From contig JAJPHD010000026.1 of NCBI GenBank assembly GCA_021325455.1, forward strand, positions 248,001-312,000: a stretch of DNA of 64,000 nucleotides. The letters are read 5' to 3'. This DNA is from Actinomycetota bacterium. GTDB lineage: Bacteria > Actinomycetota > Acidimicrobiia > Acidimicrobiales > JAJPHD01. The notes under the pieces were generated by a model, which was given only the letters and a program-made list of their open reading frames with translations, was not told the DNA's origin and made no database searches. A program made the position numbers and the translations under genes. Shown piece after piece: positions 31,582 to 42,531 of this stretch (positions are counted from its first letter, which is position 1; every line of letters starts with the position of its first letter).

Positions 31582-32405
31582 GGATAGTCACCGACAGCGC
31601 CGCTGCCCTGCCCTCCCACCTCAGCGCCAGCCTGGGGGTGACGGTGGTCCCCATGCGCATCACCATCGGGCAGCAGAGCTACGAGGGAGATGGCGTCCCC
31701 CTGGAGGAGGTGGTGGCGCGCTTCGACGAGGGGGTGCACACCGCGGGGCCGGCCCCCGCCTCCTTCCGCCGGGCCTTCATGGCCGCCGACCAGGGCGAGG
31801 GGGTGGTGGCGGTCACGGTATCGGAGCGGATGAGCAGCACCTACAAGTCGGCCCTGCTGGGCGCCGACATGCACTCGGGGCGAGTGCAGGTGGTGGACTC
31901 CCGCACGGCAGCGGGGGGCCAAGCGCTGGTGGTGCTGGCTGCGGCCGAGGCGGCCAGGCAGGGCAGGGGCCTGGAGGAGGTGGTGGCCCGGGTCGAAGCG
32001 GTGAGGGAAGGCGTCCGCCTGGTGGCGGCGGTGGGGTCACTCGAGTACCTGGCCCGAGGGGGCCGCATCCCTGAGCTGGCCGGTCGGGCCGGCCGTTACC
32101 TGGGCGTGAGGCCCCTCTTCGAGTTCCGGGCGGGCCGCATCAGGCCCTTGCGACCCTCCCTGAGCCGGGACGGGGCCCTGGAGGCCCTGCTGGGTCACTG
32201 GCGCCGCAGCCGGGCTGGGCTCTCCGGCTCCGCGGCGCTGCACGTGGTGGTGTCCCATGCCCTCGACACCGCCATGGCCGACGCCCTGGTCTCCGCCATC
32301 CGGGCCGAGGTGGAGCCAGCCACCTGCCTGGTGGAGTCGTTCAGCCCGGTCATGGTGGCCCACACCGGCCCTGGCGTCACCGGCCTGGCCTGGCGCTGGG
32401 AGTAG
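31572..32405 (+). CDS. DegV/FakB-like fatty-acid-binding protein
   Basis: A 277-residue DegV-family protein. The family binds a fatty acid between two domains, and FakB members present it to the kinase FakA, giving acyl-phosphate, the substrate of PlsY. Family features are GIVTDSAAALP at the N-terminus, VTVSERMSSTYKSA around residues 85-98, and SLEYLARGGRIP around 157-168. It overlaps the end of the PlsY-like gene, so the two are probably co-translated. FakA itself is not in the window. Confidence 0.88.
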   Translation: MPVGIVTDSAAALPSHLSASLGVTVVPMRITIGQQSYEGDGVPLEEVVARFDEGVHTAGPAPASFRRAFMAADQGEGVVAVTVSERMSSTYKSALLGADMHSGRVQVVDSRTAAGGQALVVLAAAEAARQGRGLEEVVARVEAVREGVRLVAAVGSLEYLARGGRIPELAGRAGRYLGVRPLFEFRAGRIRPLRPSLSRDGALEALLGHWRRSRAGLSGSAALHVVVSHALDTAMADALVSAIRAEVEPATCLVESFSPVMVAHTGPGVTGLAWRWE

Positions 32406-32481
32406 GGAGGGGCGGAGGCACGGGACTCCCCCGTCCGGTGCCGCTACCGTCGTCTCGGTCCAGGGAACCCCAGGAGGCAAG

Positions 32482-34218
32482 GTGCCAGGCTCCCGGCTAC
32501 GAGCCGTGCACAACCGGTTGCACCTCCCTGGCCCCCTGCTGGCCCTGTGCGTGGGGCCCAGCCTGGTGGAGGCGGTCCTGGTGACCGCCCTGGGGGCCGG
32601 TAGCGGTCTGAGCCTCGCCCCCCAGGCCAATGCCCCCGTGCCCTTCGGTGTCTTCCACGACCTGCGCTGGCTGATCGTCTACTCCCGTTCCTGGGAGGGG
32701 CTGGTGGCCGAGGGGATGGCCCTCCTGGTCGCCCGCAGCCTCCTCACCGCCCTCACCGTGCGGGCCGCCTGGCCCCCGGGCCTCGACCGGCCCTCCCTGG
32801 CCTCGCTGCTCCTGCGGGCGGCCGCCTTCACCCTCGGAGCGACGGCCCTCCTGTCTCCCTGGACCATCCTGCTGTTCGGCCTGGCCGTGGCCCCGGTGTC
32901 ATGGTTCTTCCTGGCCTCGGTCCCGGCGGCGCTGATCATCGCTCTCCTGGTCCACCAGGGAGCCATCGCCCCGGGCTGGTGGCGCCAGAGCCTCGCTCCC
33001 AAGGCCCTGGCCTGGATAGTCCTCACCTTCCTGGCCTTGTCGGCCAGCGCCGAGGTCACCGGCTCCCTGCCCCCGGTGGCCGGGGTGGCCGTGGCCGGAG
33101 TGGCGGGGGTCTTCGACGCCTGGGCCTGGCGGGGGCTGGTCTCCGCCGTCGCCAACAGGCCCACGGCAGCGCGCTTCCGGCCCGTGGCCCCGGCGGGGCT
33201 GGTGAGCCTGGCCGTCGTGGTGATGGCGGGCACGGTGGCGGGCTTCAGCGTGGCGGCCCGGGTCCCCCGCTCCCCGGGGCCCAGCACCCTCCACCGGGGG
33301 ACGGCGGGCGGGCCCGGGGGCGATCCCGCCCCAGGGGACCGGCCCCGCCAGCCGCTGCTCATCGCCAGCGGCTACGGGACGCACTGGGACGGTGCCAGGT
33401 CCCCGGCCCCCCTGCCCGGACCCTACATAGAGCGTCGCTTCTCCTACCGGGGGCTGGGCCCCCACGGTCCCCTCCCCTATACCAGCGCCGACACCACCCA
33501 GCCACTGGCGAAGCTGGAGAGGCTGATGGCTGTGCAGGTCCAGGCCCTCCACCGCCTCACCGGCGAGCCGGTGAGCATCGTGGCCGACAGCGAGGGCGCC
33601 CTCGTGGCCAAGGCCTACCTGGCGGCAACCCCGGGGGCGCCCGTGAGCACCCTGGTCATGGTGAGCCCCCTCGTGAGGCCGGCCCGCGTCTACTACCCCC
33701 CCGCCGGCTCCCAGGGCTGGGGGCTGGCCGGGGGGGCCGGCCTGCTCACCCTGAGCCGGACCATCCGCTCGGTGGCCCCCATTCCCCTCTCGCCCTCCAC
33801 GCCGTTCCTGCGCTCGGTCGTCCGAGAGGCCTCCGACCTGCGCCCCCTGCTCTCCTGTCCCCTGCCCGGGGTCCGCCAGGTCGCCTTCCTGCCGCTGGCT
33901 GACGCCGTGGCCTCGCCCGACCCCTCCCCCCTTGGCATACCGTCGGTGGTCTTTCCCGCCTTCCACGGCACCATGCTGGCCAACCCGGCCGCCGACCGGG
34001 CCCTGCGGGCCGTGCTCAGCGGGAAGAGGCCTCCCCCCACCCCGGGGTGGTCCCTGGCAGACAGCCTCATACGCTCCGCCGCTGCCGCCTGGCAGGTCCC
34101 GGGCCTGGCCTCGGGCCTCAACCCGGTGTGGGACCAAGGCCCCGTGGACGGGAGCTCCCCGAGCCTCTCCCGGTGCCAGAGCATCCGGGCCCACCTCCGG
34201 GCCCAGCTGGCTCGCTGA
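32482..34218 (+). CDS. Membrane-anchored alpha/beta-hydrolase-like protein
   Basis: A 578-residue protein. Residues about 15-285 hold several membrane segments (for example LLFGLAVAPVSWFFLASVPA). From about residue 305 there is a soluble alpha/beta-hydrolase-like domain: LLIASGYGTHWDG, then a nucleophile-elbow-like SIVADSEGALVAKAYLA with S370, then LVMVSPLVRPARVYYP and a late FHGTMLANP that may hold the catalytic histidine. The elbow reads D-S-E-G instead of the usual G-x-S-x-G. GTG 32482 follows AGGAGG by five bases. I do not recognise a named family. Between a FakB-like and a glycosyltransferase gene, it may act on lipids. Confidence 0.6.
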   Translation: MPGSRLRAVHNRLHLPGPLLALCVGPSLVEAVLVTALGAGSGLSLAPQANAPVPFGVFHDLRWLIVYSRSWEGLVAEGMALLVARSLLTALTVRAAWPPGLDRPSLASLLLRAAAFTLGATALLSPWTILLFGLAVAPVSWFFLASVPAALIIALLVHQGAIAPGWWRQSLAPKALAWIVLTFLALSASAEVTGSLPPVAGVAVAGVAGVFDAWAWRGLVSAVANRPTAARFRPVAPAGLVSLAVVVMAGTVAGFSVAARVPRSPGPSTLHRGTAGGPGGDPAPGDRPRQPLLIASGYGTHWDGARSPAPLPGPYIERRFSYRGLGPHGPLPYTSADTTQPLAKLERLMAVQVQALHRLTGEPVSIVADSEGALVAKAYLAATPGAPVSTLVMVSPLVRPARVYYPPAGSQGWGLAGGAGLLTLSRTIRSVAPIPLSPSTPFLRSVVREASDLRPLLSCPLPGVRQVAFLPLADAVASPDPSPLGIPSVVFPAFHGTMLANPAADRALRAVLSGKRPPPTPGWSLADSLIRSAAAAWQVPGLASGLNPVWDQGPVDGSSPSLSRCQSIRAHLRAQLAR

Positions 34219-34277
34219 TCGGGGTTCAACATAACAGGCGGGCCCAGGCCAGAGCATCCGGGCCCACCTCCGGGCCC
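34175..34277. repeat. 30-bp perfect direct repeat, two copies
   Basis: The 30 bases at 34175-34204 recur exactly at 34248-34277, 73 bases apart. The first copy encodes part of the last residues of the hydrolase (CQSIRAHLR); the second is in the non-coding gap before the glycosyltransferase gene. It looks like a local tandem duplication of the gene end. Confidence 0.9.
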
Positions 34278-34376
34278 TGCTGGGGGCCCGGCCCCAGGTG
34301 AGGGGGGCCGATGGCGGTAGAGCCCGGGCCTTTTGGGGCAAGATGGAAGGGGACCCGAGGAGCGGGCCTGCCTTCC

Positions 34377-35915
34377 ATGACCCTGAGAGAGCCAACGCCG
34401 ACGGCCGACGCCACCCGATCCCTTCTCCCGACATGGACGGGGAGGGCTCCGCGCCCTGGGGAGGATGGGCGGCCCCTGGTGCTCATCCTCTCCGCCAGCA
34501 TGGGTGCCGGGCACGACGGCGTGGCCCAGGAGCTGGCCCGGCGCCTGAGGTCCAGAGGGCTGGCGGTCGAGGTCCTGGACATCCTGAGCCTGCTTCCGGG
34601 GGTCGTGGGCCGGGGCCTGCGCGGCGGCTACGCCCTCATGCTCAGGTGGGCCCCCTGGCTCTACGACCTGATCTTCCGGGTGTGGTTCGAGCCCCGGGGC
34701 GGAGGGGGCCCTGTCTCACCCATCACCGTGCTCGCCGAGCGCAAGGTCCGGCGCTGGGTCGCCGACCACCAGCCCGCCCTGGCCGTTTCCACCTTCCACC
34801 TCTGCTCCGCCGTGCTGGCCGGCCTCCGCCGGCGGGGCGAGCTCCCTGTCCCGTCGGCCAGCGTGGTGGTGGACCCGGCCGTCCACCGGCTCTGGGTGGA
34901 CCCTGACGTCGACCTCCATGTCTGCCTCCACCGGCTGTCCGCTGCCGAGGCCCGCCGGAGGGGTGCTCCCCGGGCCACCGCCCCCGGCCCCTTCGTCAGG
35001 CCCGACTTCACGGACCCCTCCTGGGACCGCCACGGGGCCCGGACCAGCCTCGGCCTGGGCCCGGACGACAGGGTCGTGCTGCTGGTGGCAGGGTCATGGG
35101 GCTCGGGGGACATCGCCAACACCCTGTCCCTCGTCCAGCAGTCACCCCATCTGACCCCGGTCGTGGTGTGCGGGGCCGACGAGCGGCTCCGGCGGCGGCT
35201 GGCTCGCCAGGTGGCCCGGTCCGGCCGCCGCTGCCTGGTCATGGGCTGGGTCGACGACATGGCCCGCCTCATGGTGGCGGCCGACGTGGTGGTGGAGAAC
35301 GCCGGAGGGCTCACGGCCATGGAGGCCCTGGCCCTCGGCCGGCCGGTGGTGAGCTTCCACCCCATACCGGGCCACGGGCGCGCCAACGTCGCCGCCATGG
35401 CGAGGGCCGGCGTGGCGGCCTGGGTGACCGAGGACGACCAGCTCGTTCCCACCCTGGAGCGGGTCAGCGCCCCCGGACCGCTCCGGCACAGCCTGGTCTC
35501 GGCCGGCAGCCAGCTCCTCGCCTCGGATCCCACCGACGACCTCCTGGGCCTGCTCGCCCCCACCGCCGGGGACGGGGGCGAGGCCGCCCTTGAACGGCAC
35601 CGGTCCCCCCGGGCCGCCACCTCCTCGGGAGGAAACTCCGGACCGCCGGGCCCCTCGGAAGCCCGCAACCGGCGCCTCACCCGGGTGCGCAACCGCCGTC
35701 AGTCCCGCGAGCGCCGCCGGCGGCGGCTCCTGGGGGGCGTCCCCCTGTGGTCCCGGCACCGGCGCCAGGGCCGGGTCAGGCGCCCGGAGCCCCTTCTTTC
35801 CCGGGTTTCGCTGCGCAACGTGCCCTCCTGGCGGCGCTCAGGGCCGCCCCGACCGCGGCATCGGGCCCATCGGCCCGCAGGACGGCGTCGTCTGGCTGAC
35901 CTCCGCCCCGGGTGA
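34377..35915 (+). CDS. MGDG-synthase/MurG-like glycosyltransferase
   Basis: A GT-B glycosyltransferase of the GT28 type related to monogalactosyldiacylglycerol synthases. The N-terminal domain has the acceptor motif LSASMGAGHDGVAQELARRL; the C-terminal domain has the nucleotide-sugar motif NAGGLTAMEALALGRPVVSFHPIPGHG. After the enzyme core (about residue 400) runs a 110-residue Arg-rich tail; its last part overlaps the convergent gene by 140 bases. ATG 34311 lies in frame, but the extra 22 codons look non-coding by third-position GC, so I chose ATG 34377. It probably glycosylates a diacylglycerol-like lipid. Confidence 0.82.
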   Translation: MTLREPTPTADATRSLLPTWTGRAPRPGEDGRPLVLILSASMGAGHDGVAQELARRLRSRGLAVEVLDILSLLPGVVGRGLRGGYALMLRWAPWLYDLIFRVWFEPRGGGGPVSPITVLAERKVRRWVADHQPALAVSTFHLCSAVLAGLRRRGELPVPSASVVVDPAVHRLWVDPDVDLHVCLHRLSAAEARRRGAPRATAPGPFVRPDFTDPSWDRHGARTSLGLGPDDRVVLLVAGSWGSGDIANTLSLVQQSPHLTPVVVCGADERLRRRLARQVARSGRRCLVMGWVDDMARLMVAADVVVENAGGLTAMEALALGRPVVSFHPIPGHGRANVAAMARAGVAAWVTEDDQLVPTLERVSAPGPLRHSLVSAGSQLLASDPTDDLLGLLAPTAGDGGEAALERHRSPRAATSSGGNSGPPGPSEARNRRLTRVRNRRQSRERRRRRLLGGVPLWSRHRRQGRVRRPEPLLSRVSLRNVPSWRRSGPPRPRHRAHRPAGRRRLADLRPG

Positions 35916-37599
35916 GCTCCCACGTGCCCAGCCCCACCACCGGCCGCCCTGTCCGAAGGGCGAGGGCGATCTCCGACAGGGTGCCGTAGCCGCCGCCCAC
36001 GGCTACTACGGCGTCGGCGGCCCGGACCACCAGCCCGTTGCGGAGCTCTCCCATCCCCGTGGGCAAGGCCACGCTCAGGTACGGGTTGGCGTCCCCTCGG
36101 TCGGTCCCCGGCAGGAGGCCCACCGTCAGCCCCCCCTCCAGCCTGGCTCCCCGGCAGGCCGCCTCCATGACGCCGCCCAGCCCCCCACAAACCAGGACAG
36201 CCCCCGCTTGGGCCACGGCCCGGCCCACGGCCTCCGCCACCTGCTCCTCGTCGGCATCCGCGCTCCCCCCACCCACCACGGCGACATAGGGGCCACCCCC
36301 GGGGGCCGACGGGCCGGGCTGAGGAGCGTCCCGGCCCTCTGCCTCATGGAGAACCCCCTCCTCCCGCTGGCCCCAGGAGCCCCTCGAGCCGGAGGCCCCA
36401 CCCGGCCCGGGCCGGGCGGCCCGGCGGGGCGGGCGCCCCTCCGGGACAGCCCGGAGGACGCCGGAGCGCTCCAGCTCGGCCACCTCGGCGGGACTGCTGC
36501 CAAGCCAGTCGGCCAGCACCTGCTCGTTGTGCTCCCCCCGGTGGGCGGCCCCTCCCCGCACTCCGCTGAGGGCCTCGGAGAACCGGTAGGGGGACTGGAC
36601 CACCCGGCGGCTGCCGCCCCCGCGGTCGTCCACCTCCGCCGCCACGGCCCGGGACAGTGCGGGTGGGGAGGCAAAGGCCTCCTCGGGGGCCCGGATGTCG
36701 GCCCAGGCCAGGTCGGCCCCCTCCAGGGCCGCCACCAGCTCCTCCTTCGAGGAGAACGACCTCATCCACTCACCGAATGCCCGCCGGCGATGCTCGACCT
36801 TGTCCTCCAGCGACGCACCCGGGGGGGTGGGATCGGCCAGACCGTGCACGGTGGAGACCTGCCTCCACAGGTAGCGGAAGCTGCCCGCCAGGAGGACCGG
36901 CTGCCCGGCTCCCTCCCAGACCTGGCCACCCAGGCGCTCCACGGCCGACCCGTCCAGGGCGTGGTGGGCATAGTCGTCGGTGGCGAGCATGGCGTCCAGC
37001 ATGGCCAGGTCGATGCGCTGGCCCCGGCCCGTGCGCTGGCGCAGCCACAGGGCGGCCTGCACCGCCACCAGGCCGTGCAGGCCGGCATAGGTGTCGGCCA
37101 CCGAGAGCATGGGATCGCTGGGGGGGGTGCCGTCGAAGCGGGCCTGGCGCCACAGGAGCCCCGACTCGGCGTGGACTATGGGCGCGTACGCCCGCCTGTC
37201 CCGCCAGGGCCCGTCCTGGCCGAACCCCGTGATCGAGAGCATGACCAGGCCGGGGTTGGCGGCGCTGAGAGCCTCCCACCCCAGGCCCCACCGCCCCAGA
37301 ACGCCGGGACGGAAGTTCTCGATCAGCACGTCGGCCCGGGCGGCCAGGCGGCCCACCAGACCCGGTCCGCCCGGGGCGGCCAGGTCGATGCACACGTTCC
37401 TCTTGCCGGCGTTCTGCTGGGTGAAGAAGCCGGAGAGCCCGTGGCGGACCTCGCCCCATACCCGGCTCACATCCCCCTCCGGGGGCTCCACCTTCACCAC
37501 GTCCGCCCCGAGGTCCGAGAGCATGCGGCCGGCAAAGGGGCCGGCGAGGACCCGGGAGAGGTCCAGGACCCGGATGCCGGCGAGCGGGTAGTCGGTCAG
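35776..37599 (-). CDS. CaiB/BaiF CoA-transferase fused to a TIGR00725/LOG-like domain
   Basis: One uninterrupted frame encodes two domains. Residues about 5-395 are a family III CoA-transferase (PLAGIRVLDLSRVLAGP, VLIENFRPGVLGRWGLGW, and the catalytic aspartate in SVADTYAGLHG). After a ~60-residue Pro/Gly/Arg linker, residues about 450-607 form a Rossmann domain of the TIGR00725 type (YVAVVGGGSADADEEQVAEA, GGLGGVMEAACRGA, VGGGYGTLSEIALALRTGRP). No start codon lies in the linker in this frame. ATG 37524 would remove the first strand; the only sensible upstream start is CTG 37599, which numbers the catalytic aspartate 169, as in characterised family III enzymes. Substrate unknown. Confidence 0.8.
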   Translation of the reverse strand: MTDYPLAGIRVLDLSRVLAGPFAGRMLSDLGADVVKVEPPEGDVSRVWGEVRHGLSGFFTQQNAGKRNVCIDLAAPGGPGLVGRLAARADVLIENFRPGVLGRWGLGWEALSAANPGLVMLSITGFGQDGPWRDRRAYAPIVHAESGLLWRQARFDGTPPSDPMLSVADTYAGLHGLVAVQAALWLRQRTGRGQRIDLAMLDAMLATDDYAHHALDGSAVERLGGQVWEGAGQPVLLAGSFRYLWRQVSTVHGLADPTPPGASLEDKVEHRRRAFGEWMRSFSSKEELVAALEGADLAWADIRAPEEAFASPPALSRAVAAEVDDRGGGSRRVVQSPYRFSEALSGVRGGAAHRGEHNEQVLADWLGSSPAEVAELERSGVLRAVPEGRPPRRAARPGPGGASGSRGSWGQREEGVLHEAEGRDAPQPGPSAPGGGPYVAVVGGGSADADEEQVAEAVGRAVAQAGAVLVCGGLGGVMEAACRGARLEGGLTVGLLPGTDRGDANPYLSVALPTGMGELRNGLVVRAADAVVAVGGGYGTLSEIALALRTGRPVVGLGTWELTRGGGQPDDAVLRADGPDAAVGAALSAARRARCAAKPGKEGAPGA

Positions 37600-39748: not shown

Positions 39749-40990
39749 TCAGCCGTGGACCCCCGGCTGGCACCGCGCCCACCACCCTTCGCCTGGCCGG
39801 GCCCACCCCCACCCCTCCAGGCGGCCCAGGACGGCGGCCACCTGGGCGGGACCCAGGCCGGTGCGCCTCACCACCACATCGATGGTGGTGGGCTCGGTGC
39901 CCAGGGCGGCCCAGACGGAACGCTCGTCACGGCCCCGCGGGCCCCGCTCCTTCCCCCCGGGGCCGGGGGGCCGGGCCCCGGGGCGGGAGGGGGATCCCGA
40001 CGGTGGCCACCCGGCCTGCGGAGGCCGGAGGCCGGGGAGGCTCGCAGCGGGCCGAAGCCCGGCGCCGGGTTGCTCGAGGCTCAGGGCCACCAGGACGTCG
40101 TCCACGTCCCGGGCCGGGGGGCAGCCATCGGCCAGCAGGGAGTTGGCCCCGGCCGAGGCGGGGCTCCGGACCGATCCGGGCACGGCCAGGACAGGCCTCC
40201 CGCACCGGGCGGCCGCCTCCACCGTCAGGAGCGAACCCCCCCTTACATGCGACTCCACCACCACCACCACGTCCCCCAGAGCAGCCAGGAGCCGGTTGCG
40301 CCAGGGGAAGCGCCAGCGCTGGGCCACCGCTCCGAGGGGGGACTCCGAAAGCAGGCTCCCCTCCGAGGCGACGCGGGCCCACAGCCGTGCATGGGAAGCG
40401 GGGTAGACGACGTCCAGGCCGGTGGCCACCACGGCGAGGGGGGGAGCGTTCCCGCCCACCAGGGCGCCCTGGTGGGCGGCACCGTCTATGCCTGCCGCCA
40501 GCCCCGATACGACGCTCACCCCGGCCCGGGCCAGGCCCGCACCCAGCTCGGCCGCCACCTCCAGGCCGTAGTGGGTGGCCGAGCGCGTGCCCACGAGGGT
40601 CACCCGCGGCCGATCCAGGGCCCCGAGGGACCCCATCGAGAACAGGATGGCGGGGGGACTGGGTGCCAAGGCGGCGGGCTCGGGGAACCCGGGGCGGCCG
40701 GCCAGGTGGACCCGGACCCCGGCCTCGGTGTACGAGCGCATCACCCGTGCCGGGTCCACCCTGCGGGCGCAGCGGGCCCAGAGCTCGTACAGGGCGGCCT
40801 CCTCCCCGCCAGCGGGGAAGAGGGGTCCCTGGCCTCGGGATGGCCCGGAGGGCCCGGGAGAGAGCCCACCGTCGCGCAACGCAGACCAGGCCTCCAGGGT
40901 CGACCTGCCCGTCAGCAGGCGCCGCAGCCGGCCGGGGGTCATCTGGGGCAGAGCGGCCAGGGCCGCCCCGTGGGCCTCTTCGGCGTCCAT
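39749..40990 (-). CDS. dprA: DNA-processing protein DprA
   Basis: A 413-residue protein that loads RecA onto incoming single-stranded DNA during transformation. The Rossmann core shows VTLVGTRSATHYGLEVAAEL, VVSGLAAGIDGAAHQGAL and ESPLGAVAQRWRFPWRNRLL. A SAM-like N-terminus and a C-terminal winged-helix (TTIDVVVRRTGLGPAQVAAVLGRLE) flank it. ATG 40990 has GAGGAGG at ideal spacing; the open frame upstream is not homologous. It follows comM by 26 bases. With comM it suggests at least remnants of natural competence. Confidence 0.94.
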   Translation of the reverse strand: MDAEEAHGAALAALPQMTPGRLRRLLTGRSTLEAWSALRDGGLSPGPSGPSRGQGPLFPAGGEEAALYELWARCARRVDPARVMRSYTEAGVRVHLAGRPGFPEPAALAPSPPAILFSMGSLGALDRPRVTLVGTRSATHYGLEVAAELGAGLARAGVSVVSGLAAGIDGAAHQGALVGGNAPPLAVVATGLDVVYPASHARLWARVASEGSLLSESPLGAVAQRWRFPWRNRLLAALGDVVVVVESHVRGGSLLTVEAAARCGRPVLAVPGSVRSPASAGANSLLADGCPPARDVDDVLVALSLEQPGAGLRPAASLPGLRPPQAGWPPSGSPSRPGARPPGPGGKERGPRGRDERSVWAALGTEPTTIDVVVRRTGLGPAQVAAVLGRLEGWGWARPGEGWWARCQPGVHG

Positions 40991-41016
40991 CGTGAACCTC
41001 CTCTCGTGAGCCCGGC

Positions 41017-42531
41017 TCAGGCCACGGCCGGCAGGATCGAGGACACCCCGACCCTCAGCTCCAGCGCCGCAGCCACGTGCTCGACCTCCACCACCTCCCC
41101 GGCCCCGGCCAGGTCGGCAACTGTCCGGGCCACCCGGCGCACCCGGTGCAGGCCCCGGGCCGAGAGCAGGCCGGCCCGTAGCCGGCGTTCGAGAAGGCTC
41201 TCCGCCCCGGTCGACAAGGGCGCCCATCGGTCGAGCTCCCCGGCGCTCAGGCTGGAGTTAACCTTGACCCCCCGTGCCGCCGCCCGCTCCCGGGCCTGCA
41301 GGACCCGGGCGGCCACCACGCTGGTGGGCTCCCCGGGGCTGCCCCGGAGCAGGTCCTCCACGGCGGGCCGGCCGAGGGGCACCCGCAGGTCGAACCGGTC
41401 CAGCAGGGGCCCCGAGAGCCGACGGGCGTAGCGGGCCCGGGCGGCGGGGCTGCACCGGCAGGACCCGGGCAGGTAACCCTCCCCGCAGGGACAGGGGTTC
41501 ATGGCGCCGACCAGGAGGAAGCGGGCCGGGAAGGCAATGGTGGCCCGGGCCCGGCACACCCGCACGATGCCTTCCTCCAGGGGCTGGCGCAGGGCGTCCA
41601 GGACCGACGCCGGGAACTCCCCCATCTCGTCCAGGAACAGGACGCCGCCGCTCGCCAGGCTGACCTCGCCCGGGCGCATGGCCGCCGTGCCCCCGCCCAC
41701 CAGTGAGGTCACCGAGGCCCCGTGGTGGGGAGCCCGGAACGGCGGGCGGGTCATGAGGCCCCCTCCCGGCCACCCCAGTCCGGCCGCGGAGTGGATCCTG
41801 CTGGCCTCCAGCGCCTCTGCGGGCGACAAGGCCGGCAGCAGGCCCGGGAGCCGGCGAGCCAGCATGGTCTTGCCCGCGCCGGGGGGGCCGATGAGGAGCA
41901 GGTGGTGGGCTCCGGCGGCAGCCACCTCGAGAGCCCACCGGCCGATCCTTTGCCCCTTTACCTCGGCCAGGTCGGGCTCAGGCCGAGCCGGTCCAGGCGG
42001 TCGGGCCCTGGCGGGTGCCGCCCAGCGCCCCCGACCGCTCAGGGCGGCGACCAGGCCGGCCAGGTCGTCGACGGCGCGAACAGCCGGGCCTCCCACCAGC
42101 CCCGCCTGGCCAGCGGCCGCCGAGGGCACGACCAGTGCCGCCGCCTGGACGGCGGCGGCCATGGGCACCATCCCCGGCACGGGCCGGACCGAGCCATCGA
42201 GGCCCAGCTCCCCGATGAAGCCGCAGCCGGCCACGGCGGCAGGTGGCAGCTGGCCGTCAGCGACGAGGAGGCCGACGGCGATGGGCAGGTCCAGGCCGGG
42301 TCCCCCTTTGCGCTCTCCTGAGGGGGCCAGGTTGACGGTCACCCGCCGGGACGGGAACCGCAGCCCGCTCGAGAGGAACGCCGCTCTCACCCTGTCCCGG
42401 GACTCTCGGCAGGCAGCATCGGGCAGCCCCACAACGGTGAAGGAAGGCAGCCCGTTGCCGACGTGGACCTCCACGCAGACCGGCCTGCCCTCCACGCCGA
42501 GCAGGCTGGCCGAGGCGATGGTGGCGATCAC
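41017..42531 (-). CDS. comM: ComM / YifB family AAA+ ATPase
   Basis: A 504-residue Mg-chelatase-like AAA+ protein; ComM is a helicase that drives branch migration during transformation. The N-terminal Lon-like domain (PSFTVVGLPDAACRESRDRVRAA) precedes the AAA+ core with Walker A GPPGAGKT, Walker B VLFLDEMGEF and the cysteine-rich segment NPCPCGEGYLPGSCRC. GTG 42531 has GGGGAGG four bases upstream and starts the usual MIATIASASLLG sequence. It is upstream of dprA in the yraN-comM-dprA cluster, interrupted by two small plus-strand genes. Confidence 0.93.
   Translation of the reverse strand: MIATIASASLLGVEGRPVCVEVHVGNGLPSFTVVGLPDAACRESRDRVRAAFLSSGLRFPSRRVTVNLAPSGERKGGPGLDLPIAVGLLVADGQLPPAAVAGCGFIGELGLDGSVRPVPGMVPMAAAVQAAALVVPSAAAGQAGLVGGPAVRAVDDLAGLVAALSGRGRWAAPARARPPGPARPEPDLAEVKGQRIGRWALEVAAAGAHHLLLIGPPGAGKTMLARRLPGLLPALSPAEALEASRIHSAAGLGWPGGGLMTRPPFRAPHHGASVTSLVGGGTAAMRPGEVSLASGGVLFLDEMGEFPASVLDALRQPLEEGIVRVCRARATIAFPARFLLVGAMNPCPCGEGYLPGSCRCSPAARARYARRLSGPLLDRFDLRVPLGRPAVEDLLRGSPGEPTSVVAARVLQARERAAARGVKVNSSLSAGELDRWAPLSTGAESLLERRLRAGLLSARGLHRVRRVARTVADLAGAGEVVEVEHVAAALELRVGVSSILPAVA

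Follow-up and report, generated by a model that had tools for sequence, protein, structure and literature searches.

A CoA-transferase and a TIGR00725 domain in a single reading frame: a probable recent gene fusion in an actinomycetotal genome

Does one gene in this Actinomycetota genome encode two proteins that other genomes keep apart, or have two coupled genes been run together by errors in the sequence? The question is raised by a minus-strand frame in the window, by which we mean the whole 64,000-nucleotide stretch of contig JAJPHD010000026.1 analyzed here. In translation, this frame (37722-35776) is free of stops for 649 codons, until a TGA at 35776-35778, and the fused open reading frame within it (35776-37599, minus strand) comprises 607 codons plus the TGA. 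Two complete domains in one frame are more than chance would produce. The stop-free linker taken alone, without the domains, is not; between 54 and 88% of dinucleotide-matched random stretches of its length are also free of stops.

No ATG, GTG, or TTG occurs in frame upstream of the conserved CoA-transferase N terminus, as far back as 37722. The left end of the fused frame is a CTG codon (37599-37597), noncanonical as a start, at an aligned position where CoA-transferase orthologs begin with GTG or ATG (GTG in L006, L008, and L119), and in ortholog L007 CTG is likewise the sole start candidate at the aligned position. Initiation at the first in-frame ATG of the gene, at 37524, would lose about 25 conserved residues. 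Judged from these alignments, the CTG at 37599 is probably the start of the fused gene. The 3' end of the gene is overlapped by about 140 bases on the opposite strand by a frame for an MGDG-synthase-like glycosyltransferase (34311-35915, plus strand), whose tail is arginine rich and of low coding character.

The first part of the protein is a family III CoA-transferase domain (residues 6 to 358; 36526-37584, minus strand). It matches PF02515 (CoA_transf_3) over the entire profile (positions 1 to 366 of 366; 1.5e-79; 268.2 bits, compared to a gathering score of 23.3) and shares with the family (CaiB/BaiF; e.g., formyl-CoA transferase Frc, 4ed9, and 10uh) the full domain, the catalytic aspartate, and the family-invariant positions. 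The catalytic residue, D169 (SVADTYAG), the counterpart of Asp169 of formyl-CoA transferase, is invariant across 15 aligned orthologs and aligns with an aspartate of 10uh. Private changes affect 4 of 76 otherwise invariant positions, where the relatives range from 0 to 6, and structure prediction for the full-length protein returns a confident model of this half. Orthologs that are 50 to 70% identical terminate at or close to the beginning of the linker (within about 0 to 30 residues). Unlike all the orthologs found, the window protein continues into an extra C-terminal domain. Gene neighbors were considered and rejected as a guide to the CoA-transferase substrate, as the genes around the orthologs are mixed and unrelated (some belong to acyl-CoA metabolism). 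The domain scores below every curated equivalog cutoff in NCBIfam.

The second part is a TIGR00725/SLOG cluster 4 (LDcluster4) domain (residues 438 to 577; 35869-36288, minus strand) with a predicted Rossmann fold like that of molybdenum cofactor (Moco) carriers. It matches PF18306 (LDcluster4; 2.1e-41) with 141.5 bits, compared to 26.3, over positions 3 to 145 of the 151 in the profile, and exceeds the NCBIfam cutoff for TIGR00725 (123.5 versus 106.9 bits). The motif GGGYGTLSE is present (within VGGGYGTLSE), identity to stand-alone TIGR00725 members is 51 to 67%, and none of 25 otherwise invariant positions carries a private change. With codon log-odds of about +0.4 per codon, the CoA-transferase and the second domain alike have a strong codon bias, and neither of them shows decay. 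Elsewhere, TIGR00725/LDcluster4 proteins stand alone, whereas the window version is a C-terminal domain without a start of its own. The invariant positions are so well kept that the second domain must be translated, for which the given sequence offers no route other than the fused frame. The description in an earlier note on this DNA, of one uninterrupted frame holding a complete family III CoA-transferase with its catalytic Asp and a complete TIGR00725-type Rossmann domain with GGGYGT, is thus borne out by the translation, the profile matches, the invariant D169, and the motif.

The same note suggested that the LOG/TIGR00725-like second domain may process or sense a CoA-derived nucleotide, or that the fusion couples acyl-CoA transfer with nucleotide hydrolysis, and this reading is not supported. 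Because the second domain was misaligned when both were aligned jointly, each domain was aligned and modeled separately. The AlphaFold model of the second domain alone has a pLDDT of 91.7, with the first strand at residues 438 to 443. In a fold search with this model, 6y01 and 2iz5/2iz6/2iz7 occupied the top eleven places (30 to 33% identity), with a query-normalized TM of 0.69 to 0.76 to 6y01/2iz5. Among solved structures searched by sequence, the Moco carriers 2iz5 (8e-22) and 6y01 (5e-21) ranked first, and a profile search gave 3e-32 and 2e-35 for them, respectively; LOG enzymes came much lower (best, 1.7e-9; profile, 6e-14). Against the LOG equivalog NF058542 of NCBIfam, the domain scores 25.7 bits, compared to a cutoff of 300. 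By sequence and by predicted fold, the second domain is therefore nearest to the Moco carrier proteins (Chlamydomonas reinhardtii MCP1, 2iz5; Rippkaea orientalis, 6y01) and not to LOG. With the LOG cytokinin riboside 5'-monophosphate phosphoribohydrolases, it shares the superfamily, a conserved arginine, and a GGxGTxxE-like motif; the proline of the LOG motif PGGxGTxxE is a glycine in the second domain, whereas the rest is kept. We see nothing that ties the domain to CoA-derived nucleotides. As the nearest solved relatives are Moco carrier proteins, reading TIGR00725 proteins as LOG by default is unwarranted.

Moco binding has been shown for the Chlamydomonas MCP1 and the Rippkaea protein (PMC10385300, PMC7470044). 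The closest homologs of the Rippkaea carrier are 50 to 60% identical, and homologs at 20 to 25% are regarded as probably not carriers (PMC7470044); the second domain, at about 30 to 33% identity to the characterized carriers, falls between these ranges. Given an identity of about 31%, Moco is left as a candidate ligand. Genes for MoaA and several molybdenum hydroxylases are present in the genome, but they do not cluster with TIGR00725 genes, and the second domain is not near Moco genes. Guilt by association with molybdenum genes was rejected, as MoaA and one molybdenum-hydroxylase query had no homologs near the second gene in 92 loci. Among the papers searched, none names TIGR00725 or LDcluster4 and none has both SLOG and CoA-transferase. 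The PDB title of the Rippkaea carrier 6y01 is "p450 cytochrome, putative," which is probably a misannotation.

The linker between the domains (residues 385 to 437, about 53 residues; 36289-36447, minus strand) is 84% G+C, is predicted to be disordered, and lacks codon bias, with log-odds of about zero in the fused frame. In the full-length model, pLDDT is below 50 from residue 386 onward and about 25 to 30 in the linker, and the second domain is poorly predicted and uninformative because no aligned sequences cover that part. A codon scan found no in-frame ATG, GTG, TTG, or CTG within linker residues 385 to 437. The first in-frame GTG of the second half is at about codon 441 (441/442) and falls within the domain's first beta strand; it is the sole option for an internal start, and we rejected it, as it would remove half of that strand.

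The two frames that the fusion leaves unused hold a strong Shine-Dalgarno sequence with a stop/start overlap (36344-36362, minus strand). It consists of AGGAGG (36362-36357), a 9-nucleotide spacer, and ATGA (36347-36344), with the ATG in one of these frames and the TGA in the other. Translationally coupled gene pairs usually take this form. The chance that AGGAGG-N(4-11)-ATGA arises in such a linker is about 0.0004 to 0.0008 in dinucleotide shuffles, for a pattern that was picked post hoc. On sequence grounds, the element is probably a remnant of two genes that were once coupled. A two-gene reading calls for a one-base shift before the TGA of the CoA-transferase and another after the ATG of the second gene. 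A model with one indel was rejected: if only the second of these shifts is made, the CoA-transferase frame stays open through all of the second gene. Two indels are therefore needed, either in evolution (a fusion) or in assembly (an error).

Searches with the 607-residue query found no fused homolog among 59 relatives and 198 order, 296 class, and 396 phylum genomes. These sets overlap and include no other species of the window genome's family, and the wider ones were searched with strict cutoffs and few candidates scored per genome. Only the window matched over both domains in the relatives, order, class, and phylum searches, and no plasmid record gave a match covering 80% of the query. None of the sets searched thus contained a second species with this architecture, as a conserved fusion family would show. 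Nor was a CoA-transferase detected at E 1e-3 in the 92 second-domain loci (864 kb). An explanation from adjacent genes was also rejected, as the CoA-transferase orthologs and the second gene are not neighbors in relatives. The earlier note's statements that the linker has no in-frame start and that the two families are not normally joined agree with these results. It had named separate genes meeting at a stop and start in relatives, together with reads that show an indel, as the case against a fusion; this case is borne out only in part, as the genes are indeed separate in relatives but are unlinked rather than neighbors.

We conclude that the gene is probably a recent, lineage-specific fusion of two independently working domains. 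Since every relative found keeps the two genes apart, a recent fusion in a single lineage fits better than a new kind of enzyme. In L140 and L144, which belong to another family of the order, a stand-alone second gene lies at the syntenic place, convergent to the same hydrolase as in the window (53 to 54% identical to the window hydrolase at 32380-34215), and in L144 DegV is retained too, before the hydrolase. Upstream of the second gene, both loci have a P450 gene and not a CoA-transferase. As the stand-alone copies keep the hydrolase as a neighbor and have the P450 upstream, the second gene has probably kept its original position, and the CoA-transferase probably arrived later. In both loci, the P450 gene is the immediate upstream neighbor of the stand-alone TIGR00725 gene (L140:2523-4337, L144:9358-11197).

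We infer the following order of events. A stand-alone CoA-transferase gene would have come to sit immediately in front of a TIGR00725 gene that also stood alone, the two probably forming one operon in which the stop of the first overlapped the start of the second in ATGA. Small indels on each side of the junction would then have created a single frame, with loss of the second gene's own start. The product would be two intact, independent domains joined by a flexible linker rich in arginine, proline, and glycine. To judge from its family, the N-terminal domain would exchange CoA between an acyl-CoA and a free acid via an acyl anhydride of Asp169. The C-terminal domain, from its fold and nearest relatives, may bind a phosphorylated pterin or nucleotide, most likely Moco or a related compound. 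If the fusion is real, it is a clear example of one observed soon after it arose: relatives still carry the two donor genes separately, and the former ribosome-binding site and stop/start overlap remain legible in the linker. It reveals no new enzyme mechanism.

Several observations speak against a fusion. It is seen in a single genome, with no other species of the family in the sets searched, which leaves room for an assembly error; the linker ATGA and its good Shine-Dalgarno sequence would suit two functioning genes in an error-free sequence; the fused frame likewise has no canonical start codon; and the second domain is poorly predicted in the full-length model. The best-surviving alternative, which we consider rather unlikely, is that two translationally coupled genes overlap at the ATGA (36347-36344) and that the fused frame is an artifact of two one-base omissions in assembly. 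The AGGAGG-N9-ATGA element occupies exactly the alternative linker frames that this requires, and the omissions could fall within stretches of G or C in the linker, which is very rich in G+C and has several homopolymer runs (e.g., CCCCCGGGGG at 36305-36296 and GGGG runs upstream). Separate genes in all relatives also speak for such an artifact. However, two independent indels would be needed within about 150 bases. No breaks occur over the 5,576 codons (16.7 kb) of ten long, conserved genes in the window (RNase J, PNPase, SMC, NusA, IspG, CdsA, Ffh, FtsY, RibF, and PlsX), which makes two assembly errors so close together unlikely despite the G+C-rich linker, in a check that is biased toward intact genes because they were picked as long open frames. 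In addition, the tail of the CoA-transferase would still be long and without a match, and a 20-residue extension that is mostly absent in relatives would be left on the second gene.

A functional fusion, in which CoA transfer is coupled to the sensing or hydrolysis of a CoA-derived nucleotide, or to cofactor delivery, by the second domain, is very unlikely. Both domains are within one intact polypeptide, SLOG-superfamily proteins bind nucleotides, and the molybdenum genes noted above are encoded in the genome. However, there is no second fusion, the two genes are not colocalized in the 92 loci or at the CoA-transferase orthologs, the molybdenum queries had no match near the second gene, and the linker is predicted to be unstructured. 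Because the genes are neither fused nor adjacent in relatives, no functional coupling is implied. A slightly more remote version is a bifunctional protein whose CoA-transferase is linked to a Moco-carrier-like domain, for instance to serve a molybdenum hydroxylase that acts on a CoA thioester. Equally improbable is a decaying locus that has lost its starts and stop and whose product is by now unimportant: neither half has an ATG, GTG, or TTG start, but 607 codons are open with strong codon bias in both domains, and the catalytic residues and family-invariant positions are kept.

Two further features lie near the fused gene. About 2 kb upstream is dprA (39752-41227, minus strand), which also belongs to the SLOG superfamily, probably by coincidence. 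The hydrolase gene has a short direct repeat at its 3' end, where the 17-base sequence GGAGGTGGGCCCGGATG occurs in two copies 73 bases apart (34182-34271, minus strand).
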